From Candidatus Termititenax sp. (GTDB lineage: Bacteria > Margulisbacteria > Riflemargulisbacteria > GWF2-35-9 > DYQY01), in the NCBI GenBank assembly GCA_020719045.1, contig DYQY01000006.1:1-30797 (forward strand): a DNA stretch of 30,797 nucleotides, written 5' to 3'. The notes beneath the pieces are model-generated. The model made no database searches and had not been told where the DNA came from. It saw nothing but the letters and a program-made list of their open reading frames with translations. Made by a program: the position numbers and the translations under genes. Below, piece by piece: positions 23,941-30,797 of the stretch; position 1 is the stretch's first letter, and each line of letters begins with the position of its first letter.

Positions 23941-26900
23941 ATGCCAATACAAATCTTTTCAGAATTTACAAATCAATATAGTTTGTCAAAAACATTAAGG
24001 TTTGAGTTGAAACCAGTTGGGAAAACACTGGAACATATAGAATCTAAAGGATTACTCTCTGATGATGAAGGAAAAGCAGAAGATTATAAAAAAGCTAAAA
24101 AGCTTATTGATGAATATCATAAAGTATTTATCGAAAATATCCTAAATGAAGTTGTGATTGAAGGTGAACTATTAGCTAAAATTTATGAATGTTATAAATC
24201 TTTAAAAAGAGATAAAAATAATAATGAACTTAAAACTGTGTACTCTGATTATCAAAAAAAATTACGCACATCTATATACAAACTTATTAACGAAAAAGGG
24301 CTATCTATACTTTTCGAGAAAGAGTTTATTGATGGTGGGAAACAAGAAATAACTGATGAAAATGGCAAAAAGAAAAAAATCGAAATGAATAGTCAAGTTA
24401 TTGATTGGCTTGAATCTCTTAAACTTGAAAGGGAAATACCTGACTGGATTACAAAACATAAGTTAACCTCTATCGAAGAAGCTATTTCTGTAATAAAGAA
24501 ATTTAAAGGCTGGACGACATATTTTAAAGGATTCAACGATAATAGAAAAAATATTTATTTATCAGATGACATCCCAACATCAATAATTTTTCGTATTATT
24601 CATGATAATTTGCCTAAATTTATGGATAATCTACAAAAATGGGAAAAAATACAATCATATTTATTACAAGGACTTGACCTCTCCCAAATAGAAGAAGACT
24701 TCAAAAAAGAACTATCCTATAAAATAAACCACTATACAGGTGAAATAACTAGTATACCTTTAAATTTAGAAAATATTTTTTCTCTGGAAAATTTTAATAA
24801 TGTTCTAAATCAAAGCGGTATAGATAAATTTAATACAATTATTGGTGGTAAATTTATTGAGGGAGAACAAGAAAAAAGAAAAGGAATTAATGAATATATC
24901 AATCTTTACTCTCAGCAAAACAAGGAATTCTCAAAAACTATCCGTTCCTTAAAAATGACCACGTTATTTAAACAGATATTAAGCGATAAAGAAAATCACT
25001 CATTTATTATGGATAAATTTGAGAACGATAAACAAGTAATAGATTCTATAAATGATTATTACAAAGACACTTTCATTAAACCAATTGAAATAGGAGAAAA
25101 CAAACTATCAATCAGGGAACATATAAAGCAACTTGTTTTGGATTTCTCTTCCAATAAGCTTAATTTTGAGCATATTTATTTAAAAAACGACCAATCATTG
25201 ACTAATGTTTCTTCTAGTCTTTACGGTAATTGGGAAATAATAAAGAATGGATTGGTTTTACTCTACAAAAAAAGTAATCCTTATAAAAATAATGACGCTC
25301 CAAATGACAAAGAAAAAAAAGAACAAGACAAATGGCTTAAAAGTAATTATTTTTCAGTTTCAGACATTCAAAAAGCAATTAATTTATATTTTACACACAA
25401 TCATAATAATGAAATAAAGACTATAGAAAATCCAATAACCTCCTATCTAAAAAACGTTATAACTCTTATTGATGGAATAAATAAACAACACTCCGAAACA
25501 AAAAGTGTTCTTGATGCAACATATTATGAAACAGGAGATAAAAACAAAGAACTTCTAGGTCAAAGCAGGGAAAAAGATACCGAAAAAATCAAAATATTAC
25601 TTGATTGCATATCCAATTTACTACATGCCATAAAGCCTTTTGAGCTAAACACTGAAAAAGAAGATGATAGCAGTAAAAATGATAACGTGAATGTATTAGA
25701 AAAAGACACTGAGTTCTACCTAGTCTTTGAAGCATGCTATGAAAAGATAAAAAGCATAATCACTCTTTACAATAAAGTACGGAACTATGTCACCCAAAAA
25801 CCATATTCAATAGAAAAATATAAGCTAAATTTTGAAAATGTAACATTAGCTGACGGATGGGATAAAAATAAAGAATCAGCTAATACATGCATACTGTTTT
25901 TAAAGGATGAACATTACTATTTAGGTGTCATGGATAAAAAACATACTACTATTTTTTCAGATGAAATCATTGAAAAAACTAAGGGTGTTGGATATAAAAA
26001 AGTTGTCTATAAACTTCTCCCTGGAGCTAATAAAATGTTACCAAAAGTTTTTTTCTCAGAAAAGAACATTAATTACTACAAGCCAAGTACAAACATTTTA
26101 AGGATTAGAAATCATTCAACTCATACAAAAAATGGTGAACCTCAGAAAGGATTTTTAAAACAAGACTTTTGCTTAAATGATTGTAGAGAAATAATAGATT
26201 TTTTTAAGGAATCAATCAGTAAACACCCAGAATGGTGTAATTTTGGCTTTAATTTCTCATCGACACAGTCATACAATTCTATCGACGGCTTTTACAGAGA
26301 AATTGAGGAACAAGGATATAAGCTTACATTCCAAGATCTCAAAGAATCTTACATTAACTCACTGATTGATGAAGGGAAGTTATATCTTTTTCAAATATAT
26401 AATAAAGATTTTTCGCTATATAGCAAAGGAACACCAAATCTTCATACTTTGTACTGGAAGGCACTATTTGATAAAAAAAATTTAGAAAATATTGTGTACA
26501 AATTGAATGGTCAAGCCGAATTGTTTTATAGAAAAAAATCAATTGAAAAAAACATTACGCACCCTAAAAAAGTCTCAATTATGAATAAAAATACACTTAA
26601 TGCAAAAAAGGAAAGTATTTTTGATTACGACTTAATTAAAAACAAAAGGTTTACAGAAAATAAATTCTTTTTTCATTGTCCAATAACAATTAATTTTGGG
26701 AAATCATCACAGCCATCGTTGTTTAACAACAGAATAAACAACTTCCTTAAAAACAATACCAAAAATATTCATATCTTAGGCATTGACCGTGGAGAAAGAC
26801 ACCTTGCTTATTACACCTTGCTTGACCCACAGGGGAATATCATAAAGCAAGGAAGCTTCAATACTATTACCAATAAAACAAAGGATGGAATAGAGTTTAA

Positions 26901-27960
26901 TCAAGATTATCACCAAAAACTATCAAAAGTCGAAGGTGACAGGGATGCGGCAAGAAAAAACTGGAAAAAGATTGAAAATATCAAAGACTTAAAGGAAGGG
27001 TACTTGTCTCAGATTGTTCACAAAATAGCAGAAATGATTATTGAGTATAATGCCATTGTTGTTTTTGAGGATTTAAACACAGGTTTTAAAAGAGGTCGTT
27101 TTAAGGTTGAAAAACAAGTTTATCAAAAACTAGAAAAGATGCTTATTGATAAACTTAATTATCTGGTTTTTAAAAATAAAAATATAGATGAATCTGGTGG
27201 ACTTTTAAAAGGCTATCAATTAACTGCTCCTTTTGAATCTTTTTATAAGATGGGCAAACAGACAGGCATAATCTATTATGTCCCTGCATATCACACTTCA
27301 AAAATTGACCCAATAACTGGTTTTGTTAATTTACTGTATCCAAAATATGAAAGTGTAGATAAAACAAAAGAATTTATTAATTACTTTTCTTCAATCCAGT
27401 ATAATAAAGCTAAGGACTATTTCGAATTTACGTTTGATTATAATAACTTCCCTAACAAAGTTGAATTAACAAAAACAAAATGGACGTTTTGTACATATGG
27501 AAACAGGCTAGAAAATTTCAGAAATCCTGCTAAAAATAATCAGTGGGATACTAGAGAAATCAACCTTACAGCAAGCCTTAAAGAGTTACTTTCAAAGCAT
27601 AACGTAAGTTATGTAAATGAAAATAATTTATTGTCAGATATTGTTAGACAAGAATCAAAAGAGTTGTTCAAGTCATTTATACATCATCTAAACCTAACCT
27701 TACAGATGAGAAACAGTAAAACAGGTACTGATGAAGATTACTTGATTTCTCCGATTGCCGATAAGAACGGTGTTTTCTTTGATTCTCGTAATGCAGATGA
27801 TAGTCTACCAAAAGACGCAGATGCAAATGGTGCTTATCATATTGGTTTAAAAGGGTTAATGCTTTTAGAAAAGATTACCAAATGGAATGGAGAAAAGAAT
27901 CCAGATTTAATAATAAGAAACAAAGACTGGTATGAATTTGTTCAGAACAGGAACAAGTAA
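23941..27960 (+). CDS. cas12a: CRISPR effector nuclease Cas12a (Cpf1)
   Basis: A 1339-residue type V-A effector, closest by memory to Francisella Cas12a (1300 residues). The N-terminus IFSEFTNQYSLSKTLRFELKP is the family start. RuvC catalytic residues are D949 (GIDRGERH), E1043 (VVFEDLN) and D1294 (DADANGAYH). The second-nuclease-region Arg is R1257 (QMRNSKTG). The pre-crRNA processing residues match Francisella H843, K852 and K869 as H874, K883 and K900. PAM-contact residues K644, N648 and K702 are kept, but D638 stands where Francisella has Asn and Acidaminococcus Ser. All known active residues are present, so it should be a working RNA-guided DNA nuclease that also processes its own crRNA. 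Confidence 0.97.
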   Translation: MPIQIFSEFTNQYSLSKTLRFELKPVGKTLEHIESKGLLSDDEGKAEDYKKAKKLIDEYHKVFIENILNEVVIEGELLAKIYECYKSLKRDKNNNELKTVYSDYQKKLRTSIYKLINEKGLSILFEKEFIDGGKQEITDENGKKKKIEMNSQVIDWLESLKLEREIPDWITKHKLTSIEEAISVIKKFKGWTTYFKGFNDNRKNIYLSDDIPTSIIFRIIHDNLPKFMDNLQKWEKIQSYLLQGLDLSQIEEDFKKELSYKINHYTGEITSIPLNLENIFSLENFNNVLNQSGIDKFNTIIGGKFIEGEQEKRKGINEYINLYSQQNKEFSKTIRSLKMTTLFKQILSDKENHSFIMDKFENDKQVIDSINDYYKDTFIKPIEIGENKLSIREHIKQLVLDFSSNKLNFEHIYLKNDQSLTNVSSSLYGNWEIIKNGLVLLYKKSNPYKNNDAPNDKEKKEQDKWLKSNYFSVSDIQKAINLYFTHNHNNEIKTIENPITSYLKNVITLIDGINKQHSETKSVLDATYYETGDKNKELLGQSREKDTEKIKILLDCISNLLHAIKPFELNTEKEDDSSKNDNVNVLEKDTEFYLVFEACYEKIKSIITLYNKVRNYVTQKPYSIEKYKLNFENVTLADGWDKNKESANTCILFLKDEHYYLGVMDKKHTTIFSDEIIEKTKGVGYKKVVYKLLPGANKMLPKVFFSEKNINYYKPSTNILRIRNHSTHTKNGEPQKGFLKQDFCLNDCREIIDFFKESISKHPEWCNFGFNFSSTQSYNSIDGFYREIEEQGYKLTFQDLKESYINSLIDEGKLYLFQIYNKDFSLYSKGTPNLHTLYWKALFDKKNLENIVYKLNGQAELFYRKKSIEKNITHPKKVSIMNKNTLNAKKESIFDYDLIKNKRFTENKFFFHCPITINFGKSSQPSLFNNRINNFLKNNTKNIHILGIDRGERHLAYYTLLDPQGNIIKQGSFNTITNKTKDGIEFNQDYHQKLSKVEGDRDAARKNWKKIENIKDLKEGYLSQIVHKIAEMIIEYNAIVVFEDLNTGFKRGRFKVEKQVYQKLEKMLIDKLNYLVFKNKNIDESGGLLKGYQLTAPFESFYKMGKQTGIIYYVPAYHTSKIDPITGFVNLLYPKYESVDKTKEFINYFSSIQYNKAKDYFEFTFDYNNFPNKVELTKTKWTFCTYGNRLENFRNPAKNNQWDTREINLTASLKELLSKHNVSYVNENNLLSDIVRQESKELFKSFIHHLNLTLQMRNSKTGTDEDYLISPIADKNGVFFDSRNADDSLPKDADANGAYHIGLKGLMLLEKITKWNGEKNPDLIIRNKDWYEFVQNRNK

Positions 27961-27964
27961 AACT

Positions 27965-28834
27965 ATGGAAACCACACAAATTTCTTTATTTAAAGGACAA
28001 AAAATAAGAAAAATTATATATAACAATGAATGGTGGTTTTCTGTTTTAGATGTCATTTCCGTACTTTCAGAAACTCCATCTCCTAAAACATACTGGGCAA
28101 AAATGAAAGAACGAGACAAAGAAATGTCTCAACCGTTCCCATTTTGGGAACAGTTGAAATTATTAGCCGAAGACGGCAAAATGCGTTTAACTGACTGTGC
28201 CAATACCGAAGGTATTTTTCGCATTATCCAATCCATGCCATCACCTAAGGCAGAACCTTTTAAACGTTGGCTTGCTAAAGTAGGTTATGAGCGGGTGCAA
28301 GAAATCGAGAATCCAGAATTAGCTACAAAAAGAACAAGGCTACTCTATAAGTTAAAAGGCTACAGTGACGACTGGATAGAAAAACGTATGCGTGGAATTG
28401 CTATCAGAGAAGAGCTTACCGATGAATGGCAAAACAGAGGTGCTACAGAAAACAGAGATTACGAAATATTAACTGCTGAAATATCAAAAGCAGCTTTTGG
28501 TGTGACACCAACAGAATATAAAGAACTCAAAGGTTTAACTAGAGAAAACTTAAGAGACCATATGGATGATTTTGAATTAATTTTTACCATGCTTAGCGAA
28601 AGAGCAACGACAGAAATTCACAAAACCGAAAACTCCAAAGGAATGAATAAACTCAAACAAGATGCAAAGGTAGGTGGCAAAATAGCAGGAAATGCACGTA
28701 AAGAATTAGAAAAAAAGTTAAAACGTTCAATAGTTTCAAACGAAAATTATCTGGAAGAGACAGAAGCAAGTAAAAAGAAACAGATTGAGACACAAAAAAC
28801 ACCAGATACTGCATTAAATGCAAACTTATCTTAA
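27965..28834 (+). CDS. BRO-N / DinD-like protein inside the cas operon
   Basis: A 289-residue protein. Residues 1-115 fit a BRO-N domain as in phage antirepressors and DinD (KIIYNNEWWFSVLDVISVLSE with later EGIFRIIQSMPSPKAEPFKRW). The C-terminal half has LRDHMDDFELIFTMLSERATT and VGGKIAGNARKELEKKL, resembling the C-terminus of E. coli DinD, an SOS protein reported to inhibit RecA filaments. I start it at 27965, four bases after the cas12a stop; an upstream ATG at 27932 would overlap cas12a by 29 bases. Its end overlaps cas4 by 17 bases, so it is translated as part of the operon. This gene is absent from the Francisella locus. Whether it acts in CRISPR immunity is unknown. Confidence 0.75.
   Translation: METTQISLFKGQKIRKIIYNNEWWFSVLDVISVLSETPSPKTYWAKMKERDKEMSQPFPFWEQLKLLAEDGKMRLTDCANTEGIFRIIQSMPSPKAEPFKRWLAKVGYERVQEIENPELATKRTRLLYKLKGYSDDWIEKRMRGIAIREELTDEWQNRGATENRDYEILTAEISKAAFGVTPTEYKELKGLTRENLRDHMDDFELIFTMLSERATTEIHKTENSKGMNKLKQDAKVGGKIAGNARKELEKKLKRSIVSNENYLEETEASKKKQIETQKTPDTALNANLS
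28113..28155 (+). other. Two back-to-back hairpins inside the BRO-N gene
   Basis: GAGACA (28113-28118) pairs with TGTCTC (28125-28130). Directly after it, AACcGTTCCCA (28131-28141) pairs with TGGGAACaGTT (28145-28155), ten pairs and one mismatch around a TTT loop. No T-run follows, so this is not a standard terminator. It could be an RNA processing or polarity site between cas12a and the adaptation genes, or a result of the encoded protein. Confidence 0.4.
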
Positions 28835-29366
28835 AATATCAGAGCTAAACGATTTTATATTTTGTCCACGCTCAATATATATGCACAACTTGTATGAATC
28901 ATTTGAAAAAGAAGTTTATCAGGAAAAGCGTCAAATAAGAGGGACTATTGTCCATGAAAACATTGAAAATAAAAAGTATTCCAGCGAGAAAAGATACGTC
29001 CAAGCAATGGAAGTATATAGTGAACGTTATAACCTTGTAGGTAAAATAGACATTTTTGATATTAATAGTGGAACATTGATTGAAAGAAAATATCAAATAA
29101 AACAAATCTTCGACGGATATTGGCTACAACTTTACGCCCAAAAAATGGCGTTAGAAGAAATGGGCTATTCTGTTAAAAAATTAAAACTATATTCATTAAT
29201 TAATAACAAAGCGTATTATCTTAAAGAAGAAGAAGAAATAAGGAATAAGTTTCTAAGTGTCGTCATGGACTTAGAGAATTTTACCGTTGAAGATTTATCT
29301 GTTCAGCAAAATATAACAAAATGTTTGAATTGTATTTATAAAGAATTATGTAGGGGGGACGTATAG
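28818..29366 (+). CDS. cas4: CRISPR adaptation nuclease Cas4
   Basis: A 182-residue RecB-like nuclease. ISELNDFIFCPRS gives the first cluster Cys (C16); CLNCIYKELC near the end gives C169, C172 and C178 for a 4Fe-4S cluster. The nuclease core shows GTIVHE, GKIDIFD and ERKYQ, then QLYAQKMALEE, the usual H, D, E-x-K and Q-x3-Y motif order. Cas4 trims prespacers and selects those next to a PAM before Cas1-Cas2 integration. It begins inside the BRO-N gene and its stop shares one base with the cas1 start. No clear Shine-Dalgarno is seen, so translation is probably coupled. Confidence 0.95.
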   Translation: MQTYLKISELNDFIFCPRSIYMHNLYESFEKEVYQEKRQIRGTIVHENIENKKYSSEKRYVQAMEVYSERYNLVGKIDIFDINSGTLIERKYQIKQIFDGYWLQLYAQKMALEEMGYSVKKLKLYSLINNKAYYLKEEEEIRNKFLSVVMDLENFTVEDLSVQQNITKCLNCIYKELCRGDV

Positions 29367-30334
29367 TGCTAACAATGCCAGATTTTCGCCAAAAGACAGT
29401 TGTTTTCTTTCAAGCCAGTAATGACTTAGAGCATAAATTAAAATTCCAAAATCAAAATGTAGTTTTTGTAAAAGACGGAACAACAGAAACAAAGCTTTCC
29501 TGCCATAGAATATTGGCGATTTTTATTGTTGGAGATTTTTCTCTTACTACTCAACTTATCAAGAATTGCGTAAAATATGGCATCTCGTTAGTATTATTGA
29601 AGCAAAATTTTATGACCTATGCATCTTGTTTTGCAACTACTGAAGGAAATGTACTTTTAAGAAAGAAACAATACTATTGTTCATTTAATTTGGCTCTAGA
29701 GATTTCAAAAAATTTAATTGAGAATAAAATAAGGAACCAACTAAATCTATTAAGATACAAAGGCGTAGACTTCATAAGGGAAGAAGAAAGGAAAGAATAC
29801 AGAAAAGTAAAGATTGATGAACTTAAACAAGCTACTAGTTTTAAAGTTTTACTTGGTATTGAAGGAAGTGTGTCACGAGATTTCTTTGGCTTATATTTTA
29901 AAGAATTGGATTGGAAGAAACGTGCACCACGTACAAAAATAGATGTTTTGAACTTTCTATTAGATTTAGGATATACTATGCTTTTCAATTATGTTGAAAC
30001 GCTATGCAGATTGTTTGGTTTTGATGTCTATAAGGGAGTGTATCATCAGGAGTTTTATCAAAGAAAATCTCTAGTTTGCGATTTAATGGAACCTTTCAGG
30101 TGTATTATTGATAAAACTATTTTAAAAAGTTTCAATCTTAGTCAATTCAATTTGTCAGATTTCAGTATTACTAAATATAAATGTTCATTGCCTTATGAGA
30201 ATACAGCTAAATATAGTCATATTTTTTATAAGGAACTTCTCGAAAATAAAGAGGATATTTATTCATTTATAAAAAGCTATTATTATTTTGTTCTGAATTG
30301 TGCAGGTGATTTCCCTGTTTTTACAATAAGGTAA
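29366..30334 (+). CDS. cas1: CRISPR integrase Cas1
   Basis: A 322-residue integrase subunit. Metal-binding residues are E166 (LGIEGSVSRDFF), H227 (VYHQEFYQRKSLVCD) and E242 (MEPFRCIID), with the usual spacing. LDLGYTMLFNYVETLCRLFGFD is a strong Cas1 segment close to the Francisella type V-A protein. With Cas2 it inserts new spacers at the leader end. I use the GTG at 29366: AGGGGGG (29352-29358) lies seven bases upstream, whereas the ATG at 29375 would be 16 bases away. The start overlaps the cas4 stop by one base. Confidence 0.96.
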   Translation: MLTMPDFRQKTVVFFQASNDLEHKLKFQNQNVVFVKDGTTETKLSCHRILAIFIVGDFSLTTQLIKNCVKYGISLVLLKQNFMTYASCFATTEGNVLLRKKQYYCSFNLALEISKNLIENKIRNQLNLLRYKGVDFIREEERKEYRKVKIDELKQATSFKVLLGIEGSVSRDFFGLYFKELDWKKRAPRTKIDVLNFLLDLGYTMLFNYVETLCRLFGFDVYKGVYHQEFYQRKSLVCDLMEPFRCIIDKTILKSFNLSQFNLSDFSITKYKCSLPYENTAKYSHIFYKELLENKEDIYSFIKSYYYFVLNCAGDFPVFTIR

Positions 30335-30338
30335 TTCA

Positions 30339-30620
30339 ATGTTAATAGTAACATACGATTTTGAAGATGATAAAAAGAGAACTAAATTTTCTAAATTTTT
30401 AGAACAGTACGGTAGGAGAATACAGTATTCTATTTTTGAAATAAAAAATAGCGAAAGAGTGTTGACGAACATTTTAACAGAAATTGAAGGAAAATATAAA
30501 TCAACATTTACTGGAGCAGATAGTATAATAGTCTTTCAAGTATGTGGAAACTGTGAAAATAAAATGTTAAAATATGGTTATTCAGAAAATGATGACAAAG
30601 ACTTCTTAGTTTTTTCATGA
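30339..30620 (+). CDS. cas2: CRISPR integrase subunit Cas2
   Basis: A 93-residue ferredoxin-fold protein, normal for Cas2. VTYDFEDDKKRTKFSKFL holds the N-terminal strand with the conserved Asp (D7) and the first helix; YGRRIQYSIFEI and DSIIVFQVC are the next strands. It forms the dimer that bridges two Cas1 pairs. The gap to cas1 is four bases, and AAGG overlapping the cas1 stop serves as ribosome site. It is the last protein gene of the operon. Confidence 0.95.
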   Translation: MLIVTYDFEDDKKRTKFSKFLEQYGRRIQYSIFEIKNSERVLTNILTEIEGKYKSTFTGADSIIVFQVCGNCENKMLKYGYSENDDKDFLVFS

Positions 30621-30761
30621 GCAAATTGATATACTTAATAAAATGTAAAACCTAGGTGTTAATTTTTTTACTTTCGCTTTAGACCAATTAAATCAAAGGT
30701 TCCTTATTTTTCTGCTTAGACTATTTTTCTCTAAAGCTGAGTAACTGCAAGGAAAAATACT
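30621..30761 (+). promoter_or_regulatory. CRISPR leader
   Basis: These 141 AT-rich bases separate cas2 from the first repeat. TATACT (30630-30635) is a possible -10 box, but no -35 box is convincing. The leader holds three near-copies of the first nine bases of the repeat (GTCTAAAGC): an exact inverted copy at 30676-30684, an inverted copy lacking one A at 30714-30721, and a direct copy at 30729-30737 with one change. The second and third can pair as a hairpin with one bulged base. Confidence 0.7.
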
Positions 30762-30797
30762 GTCTAAAGCACCTATAAAATTTCTACTGTTGTAGAT
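30762..30797 (+). CRISPR. First repeat of a type V-A CRISPR array
   Basis: The last 36 bases of the window form a Cas12a-type direct repeat. It begins GTCTAAAGC and ends with the 19-base handle AATTTCTACTGTTGTAGAT, whose TCTAC/GTAGA stem with a TGTT loop is, as I recall, identical to the Francisella Cas12a handle. It lies on the same strand as the cas genes. The window stops exactly at the repeat end, so spacers and the rest of the array are not visible; one repeat alone is called from its match to the known handle and its place after cas2. Confidence 0.92.

Follow-up and report, generated by a model that had tools for sequence, protein, structure and literature searches.

Using a combination of approaches (family models, locus comparisons, a family tree, structure prediction and tests of synonymous codon choice), we found that the Bro-N gene lying between cas12a and cas4 in a type V-A CRISPR operon of Candidatus Termititenax sp. 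is a full-length member of the PDC-S13 family, whose members share a hypervariable, swapped patch. We propose, with about an even chance of being correct, that this gene is an accessory defence cargo carrying an exchangeable DNA-reading module, and not a cofactor of Cas12a. A single-gene PDC-S13 cassette would have been inserted at the effector/adaptation junction of the operon, where it would be expressed from the cas message at a site that spares Cas function. The helix and wing of its Bro-N domain would form an exchangeable, fast-changing module recognising particular DNA, which the C-terminal helical domain, predicted to have the DdrC fold, would coat or condense. The gene would serve as a second line of defence riding with the CRISPR operon, independently of Cas12a.

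This proposal stems from the following lines of evidence. First, the protein matches PDC-S13 over its full length, its nearest kin are non-CRISPR copies from its own phylum, and the base composition of the gene differs from that of the cas genes. Second, cas12a and cas4 usually abut, the family has a habit of packing into operons, and it recurs in defence loci. Third, the copies residing in type I-B operons are under purifying selection, the structural model is DdrC-like, and the patch is swappable. Against a defence cargo, many family members sit in housekeeping operons or are broken, which equally fits a passenger, and purifying selection was seen in the I-B clade, not in the Candidatus Termititenax gene, the synonymous sites of which are mostly saturated in the comparisons.

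The gene and its type V-A operon

The window (the whole stretch of DNA that was analysed, 30,797 nucleotides) harbours a complete type V-A locus, as judged from family models and repeats: Cas12a, the PREFRAN-type Cas4 and Cas1, Cas2 and an array. Its relevant features are as follows:

23941..27960, + strand: cas12a effector, 1339 aa, with RuvC, NUC, REC and PI domains (TIGR04330, 1418 bits)
27965..28834, + strand: Bro-N/PDC-S13 gene, 289 aa (PF02498; PDLC04920, 1e-112; phrog_15286, 3e-86)
28001..28279, + strand: Bro-N domain, residues 13-105 (Pfam match; AlphaFold2 model with APSES/Bro-N fold matches)
28061..28204, + strand: hypervariable exchangeable patch, residues 33-80, with the predicted recognition helix and wing (close-pair comparison, sliding window)
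28130..28156, no strand: palindrome within the patch, CAACCGTTCCCATTTTGGGAACAGTTG, 11/12 pairs, 3-nt loop (pairing, RNA fold, family-wide covariation)
28313..28720, + strand: predicted all-helical C-terminal domain, residues 117-252, DdrC-like (AlphaFold2 pLDDT mostly >90; VIA-align)
28754..28834, + strand: predicted disordered tail, residues 264-289 and stop (pLDDT <50; longer than in homologues)
28818..29366, + strand: cas4, PREFRAN type (TIGR04328, 2.7e-57)
29366..30334, + strand: cas1, PREFRAN type (TIGR04329, 1.4e-98)
30339..30620, + strand: cas2 (PF09827, 7e-17)
30761..30797, + strand: first CRISPR repeat; the array continues beyond the window

A preliminary description of this DNA had correctly placed an extra open reading frame inside a Francisella-type operon, 4 nt after cas12a and overlapping cas4 by 17 nt. 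The operon goes on with cas1 and cas2, after which comes the first repeat. As the same description suggested, the gene lies inside the operon and probably shares its message. No RNA structure was found at the overlap with cas4. The gene is the sole full-length PDC-S13 copy in its genome. The CRISPR array is very short and decayed: it spans positions 30761-31078 (L178:1862-2179) and comprises three intact repeats, with a first spacing of 155 nt and a degenerate last repeat.

Family identity and predicted fold

The protein matches the Pfam Bro-N domain (PF02498; E 5e-12, 46.7 bits for a gathering cut-off of 25.6) and, over its full length, both the PADLOC PDC-S13 model (374 bits; the alignment joins residues 1-277 of 289 to model positions 1-281 of 286) and PHROG 15286, the function of which is unassigned. 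There was no match at E<=1 to RhuM (PF13310) in Pfam or to DinD (NF008573, cut-off 242 bits) in NCBIfam, and a sequence search of the PDB returned no meaningful match. In the literature searched, there was no paper on PDC-S13 by name, and no relevant paper joining Bro-N or DinD to Cas12a. We know of no experiment showing phage defence by any PDC-S13 protein, and the family has no more than candidate status in PADLOC.

The C-terminal half had been likened to DinD in the preliminary description. A distant resemblance does exist, but it falls short of a DinD match in NCBIfam, with a BLASTP E value of 0.25 and an hhalign probability of 19% against E. coli DinD (P 0.0012, residues 151-253). The same NF008573 model gave 21 bits to a PDC-S13 homologue from a Bacteroidales genome (L377), as compared to 437.7 for a true DinD (L188). 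We rejected the DinD identity because this family model is not matched and the full-length relatives are those of PDC-S13 and PHROG 15286. The related suggestion of a DinD-like action on RecA finds no support in family membership, and by predicted structure DdrC is the better match. In one Type I restriction operon (hsdM-DinD-PDC-S13-hsdS; L188:1583-4482), a true DinD gene does lie next to a PDC-S13 gene and overlaps it.

The AlphaFold2 model (41 sequences in the alignment, pLDDT 86, pTM 0.73) matched DdrC of Deinococcus radiodurans (PDB 8u0g, 7udi and 7qvb) over both domains, with a Foldseek E value of 1e-6 and a VIA-align Z of 14.6 over 218 residues. The overall rmsd of this superposition is about 10 Å, probably owing to a difference in domain orientation, and the identity is 12%. 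To our knowledge, DdrC is not a defence protein. The N-domain of the model also matches the DNA-binding domains of Mbp1 and PCG2. DdrC binds single- and double-stranded DNA, shields DNA from nucleases, and condenses and circularises it (PMC5436757). The window product is thus predicted to be a DNA-binding protein, a role that the preliminary description had envisaged for the Bro-N gene and with which the modelled fold is consistent.

Insertion into the type V-A operon

The best 80 related Cas12a loci, found with an alignment of the Cas12a C-terminal region (a single-protein query gave no match), served for comparison, and gene calls in the compared genomes were simple open reading frames. None of these 80 other loci has a PDC-S13 gene between cas12a and cas4, which abut, overlap or lie at most 150 nt apart in 41 of the 66 loci showing cas4. 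Similarly, 50 Cas12a genomes contain about 31 full-length PDC-S13 copies, none of them in this position. The family tree places the window gene within a group of non-CRISPR copies from the same phylum, the closest of which is 72% identical. From this kinship and the 0/80 count, we conclude that it is a local insertion and not an ancestral gene.

The overlap with cas4 looks like a result of that insertion, considering three features: the tail following N261 comprises 28 residues, for a family median of 15.5; the codons of its last residues run into the beginning of cas4; and the GC content of the gene is 35%, as compared to 26-29% for the cas genes. No conserved cassette ends or terminal repeats were seen around PDC-S13 genes. 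In one of the 80 loci (Bacteroidales UBA1215; L071:1932-2441), a truncated PDC-S13 relic lies directly upstream of cas12a, and its palindrome is the same as that of the L377 copy.

Packing of the family into unrelated operons

The preliminary description took the tight packing of the gene as an argument against a random recent insertion. This argument does not hold, as the family packs with gaps or overlaps of 0-20 nt into unrelated operons. A co-directional neighbour stands within -40 to +10 nt in 26 of 75 full-length PDC-S13 loci (window included). Tight insertions were found between carA and carB, between two MacB-like genes, at a GH130 (glycoside-phosphorylase) gene, with a 20-nt overlap of uvrA and 4 nt before the enolase gene, while looser placements occur beside photolyase and FtsJ/S4-methyltransferase genes. 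The tight neighbours also include restriction genes, namely hsdM and hsdS (Type I), a type IIG enzyme and Type III genes. Since the family packs equally tightly into housekeeping operons, packing alone is uninformative about a coupling to Cas12a, which corrects the common inference that tight operon packing means functional coupling.

These placements favour an alternative that we regard as a serious possibility, though on the unlikely side, namely that of a chance passenger: a mobile gene that hops into operon junctions to be expressed and plays no part in defence, so that the cas operon would be one landing site among others. Several copies and fragments occur per genome, many copies being broken and many fragments carrying stops; close relatives at different sites have little or no common flanking DNA outside the open reading frame; and the slot is empty of PDC-S13 in the best 80 other Cas12a loci. 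The preliminary description had itself stated that a gene confined to one locus, with homologues scattered elsewhere, would be a passenger. Within type V-A this is what we found, but the family recurs at I-B and II-C junctions. Besides this recurrence at the boundary in three CRISPR types, the passenger explanation is opposed by the strong purifying selection acting in the I-B clade, and by the presence at the Cas12a slot of RhuM, the design of which is common with PDC-S13.

The effector/adaptation junction in several CRISPR types

In Campylobacterales, 6 of the 12 full-length PDC-S13 copies belong to type I-B operons, in the orders cas3-BRO-cas4-cas1-cas2 (four loci), cas3-cas4-BRO-cas1 (one) and cas3-BRO without cas1 (one). 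These six copies form one clade (support 100/100), and the plasmid pACLO provides a seventh I-B locus. All seven copies are under purifying selection, with dN values of 0.06-0.14 and dS values mostly around 1 or above (0.24 for the closest pair). In type II-C, the order cas9-BRO-cas1-cas2-array occurs in at least one Bacteroidales genome (L377), the genes being spaced by 1 and 4 nt, and the protein is 59% identical to that of the window. The statistical weight of this recurrence is modest, because I-B stands for at least one event and II-C for one, and the V-A case cannot be counted as it is the one through which the gene was discovered.

RhuM uses the same site: in 9 of the best 80 Cas12a loci it lies directly after cas12a, or else near or behind a second effector located downstream of cas12a (intact in L031, L033, L043, L053, L059, L075 and L079; broken in L086 and L092), and two I-B operons have it at the cas4/cas1 junction. 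RhuM open reading frames between cas1 and cas9 have been reported in Bacteroides fragilis (PMC5704556). Other occupants of the junction are the second Cas12a-like effector (PADLOC Cas12a models) and MazF/PemK, PIN, HEPN-like, Fic, AAA_14-DUF4143 and PDDEXK_3 proteins. We take the second effectors to be Cas12a2. In five Campylobacterales I-B loci (L277, L282, L283, L284 and L026), MazF/PemK, PIN, HEPN-like, Fic or AAA_14-DUF4143 genes sit at cas3/cas4 or cas4/cas1, and L287 encodes between cas4 and cas1 a 331-aa protein without Pfam or NCBIfam match (L287:2509-3501, - strand). From the sequences compared, the effector/adaptation boundary appears to tolerate, and perhaps to favour, the insertion of defence-like cargo, which would make it a recurrent landing site in types I-B, II-C and V-A.

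The location could also mean that PDC-S13 is a genuine CRISPR accessory, i.e. a DdrC-like protein holding or shielding the DNA ends or nicks that the effector leaves, thereby feeding Cas4-Cas1-Cas2 or limiting self-damage. In V-A and I-B the gene lies beside cas4 or directly upstream of it, and in II-C between cas9 and cas1; these positions and the predicted fold suit such a function. We nevertheless consider it improbable, as most V-A and I-B loci have no PDC-S13 gene, most family members are far from cas genes, and the presence of MazF/PemK, PIN, Fic and AAA_14 in the same slots indicates that they are not specific for a DNA-end factor.

These very neighbours could instead suggest a toxin-like or addiction gene making the loss of the operon costly, which may be what the toxin-antitoxin modules found there do. 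In favour of it are the MazF/PemK, PIN, HEPN-like and Fic genes at the same I-B junctions, and the proposal that the RhuM genes embedded in restriction loci encode a toxin (PMC3710099), yet we hold it to be very unlikely in view of the lack of an adjoining antitoxin partner gene in the window, the lack of a recognised catalytic motif, and the predicted DNA-binding fold. Lastly, a captured phage antirepressor regulating cas transcription is scarcely credible: it has for it the Bro-N domain, relatives in IMG/VR contigs and Ant PHROG matches over the N-domain, but these matches are weak, the best E value being 2.6e-5, and do not go beyond the N-domain, ending around residue 113, and no phage genes were noticed around the locus.

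A variable patch encoded across a palindrome

Turning back to the proposed defence cargo, its putative DNA-reading module coincides with the most variable part of the protein. When close relatives are compared, differences are three times as frequent in residues 33-80 as in the rest (0.351 versus 0.122), the patch being the more divergent part in 24 of 28 disjoint close pairs, and the top sliding window covers residues 30-77. For instance, L146 and L151 share 91% identity outside the patch and 23% inside, and L179 and L187, both from I-B operons, 96% and 58%. Conversely, patch types are common to distant backbones (108 pairs with a patch identity >0.65 and a backbone identity <0.55), and the backbone tree requires 53 changes of type (66 when shuffled; minimum 11). 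In the AlphaFold2 model, the patch takes in a helix (residues 40-50) and the strands of the wing (61-67 and 73-80). In APSES domains, the recognition helix and the wing are the DNA-contacting elements. Residues ~33-80 are hypervariable and swapped, and they probably read DNA.

The DNA encoding the patch also contains a palindrome of about 25 bp, the loop of which measures 3-5 nt, at a fixed place (28 codons before the conserved IQS motif, ~residues 55-65). At least 9 of 12 pairs form in 94 of the 105 PDC-S13 genes of the fetched loci, and in 72 of the 105 the perfect arms are longer than in any of 40 synonymous recodings; in a control region elsewhere in the gene, they never exceed 7 bp. Among 42 distinct sequences, 95% of the cells pair (score 0.779, versus 0.172 when shuffled; 0/500), and sliding the alignment by one base abolishes this covariation. 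The 95% value is partly due to the construction of that set, picked for pairing, a bias of which the synonymous test is free. Furthermore, the same peptide ELST..CRQ is encoded with different codons forming different palindromes, GAACTGTCGACA..TGTCGACAGTT versus GAGTTGTCGACA..TGTCGACAACT. By these sequence comparisons, the palindrome is kept by synonymous codon choice in most genes of the family. That of the window has 7 perfect pairs, a number also reached by the best of its 40 recodings, so that it shows no clear excess by itself, and its RNA fold has a z of -4.4.

The mismatches of the palindrome comprise 14 G.T and 14 A.C, i.e. G.U is not favoured, which fits a double-stranded dyad (such as a dimer site) better than an RNA hairpin. 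We rejected on this ground the hairpin as the chief cause of the palindrome, though the mRNA could still form one. No second copy of the palindrome was found near the gene, in the fetched loci or in the window. A weak 7-bp inverted repeat occurs at about residues 62-66 in E. coli dinD (L375:1761-2585) and in the dinD of L188; its position matches that of the PDC-S13 palindrome, but the repeat may be due to chance.

RhuM displays a parallel arrangement. Its palindrome has arms of at least 10 bp in 59 of 94 genes, nearly always at a distance of 36 or 39 residues ahead of the FRxW motif. In 55 of the 94, the arms exceed those of all 15 synonymous versions. The hypervariable wing of RhuM occurs as two alternative cassettes, VQxEGxR or TAxDGK, with palindrome arms of 10-13 bp at a fixed place (examples in L031:14943-15989, L033:7776-8837, L053:16668-17639 and L075:14849-15820). 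Two widespread families of unassigned function, PDC-S13 and RhuM, hence turn out to have in common a hypervariable patch encoded by a covarying palindrome. A tentative idea, which we think rather unlikely, is that a PDC-S13 or RhuM dimer reads the very palindrome that encodes its own helix and wing, reader and target changing together as one cassette. If so, the gene could tell DNA of its own type from other DNA, for autoregulation, competition between copies or a switch in defence specificity, and such a self-tagged switch would ride in CRISPR and restriction operons. As a first candidate binding target is written in each gene, the function of both families is directly testable.

Comparison with known systems

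Similarly to Francisella-type V-A loci, the window has the cas12a, cas4, cas1, cas2 order and the same repeat type, from which it differs by the extra gene between cas12a and cas4. PDC-S13 is in PADLOC a single-gene phage-defence candidate, apparently defined by sequence only, whereas the window copy is embedded in a type V-A operon. E. coli DinD and the window protein have the motif KGL..LRDHM..EL in common in their C-terminal halves, while the N-terminal half of DinD has no detectable sequence similarity to the window protein. DdrC resembles it in the predicted fold of both domains and probably in having a DNA-binding N-domain, and differs in genomic setting. As for RhuM (PF13310, PADLOC PDC-S05), homology with the Bro-N protein over its length is not significant by hhalign (5.7%), and the C-terminal halves differ. 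Like PDC-S13, however, RhuM occupies the Cas12a slot, a nearby I-B slot and, according to the literature, II-C loci, and it combines a Bro-N-type N-domain, as judged from its fold, with a hypervariable wing and an internal palindrome at the place matching that of PDC-S13.
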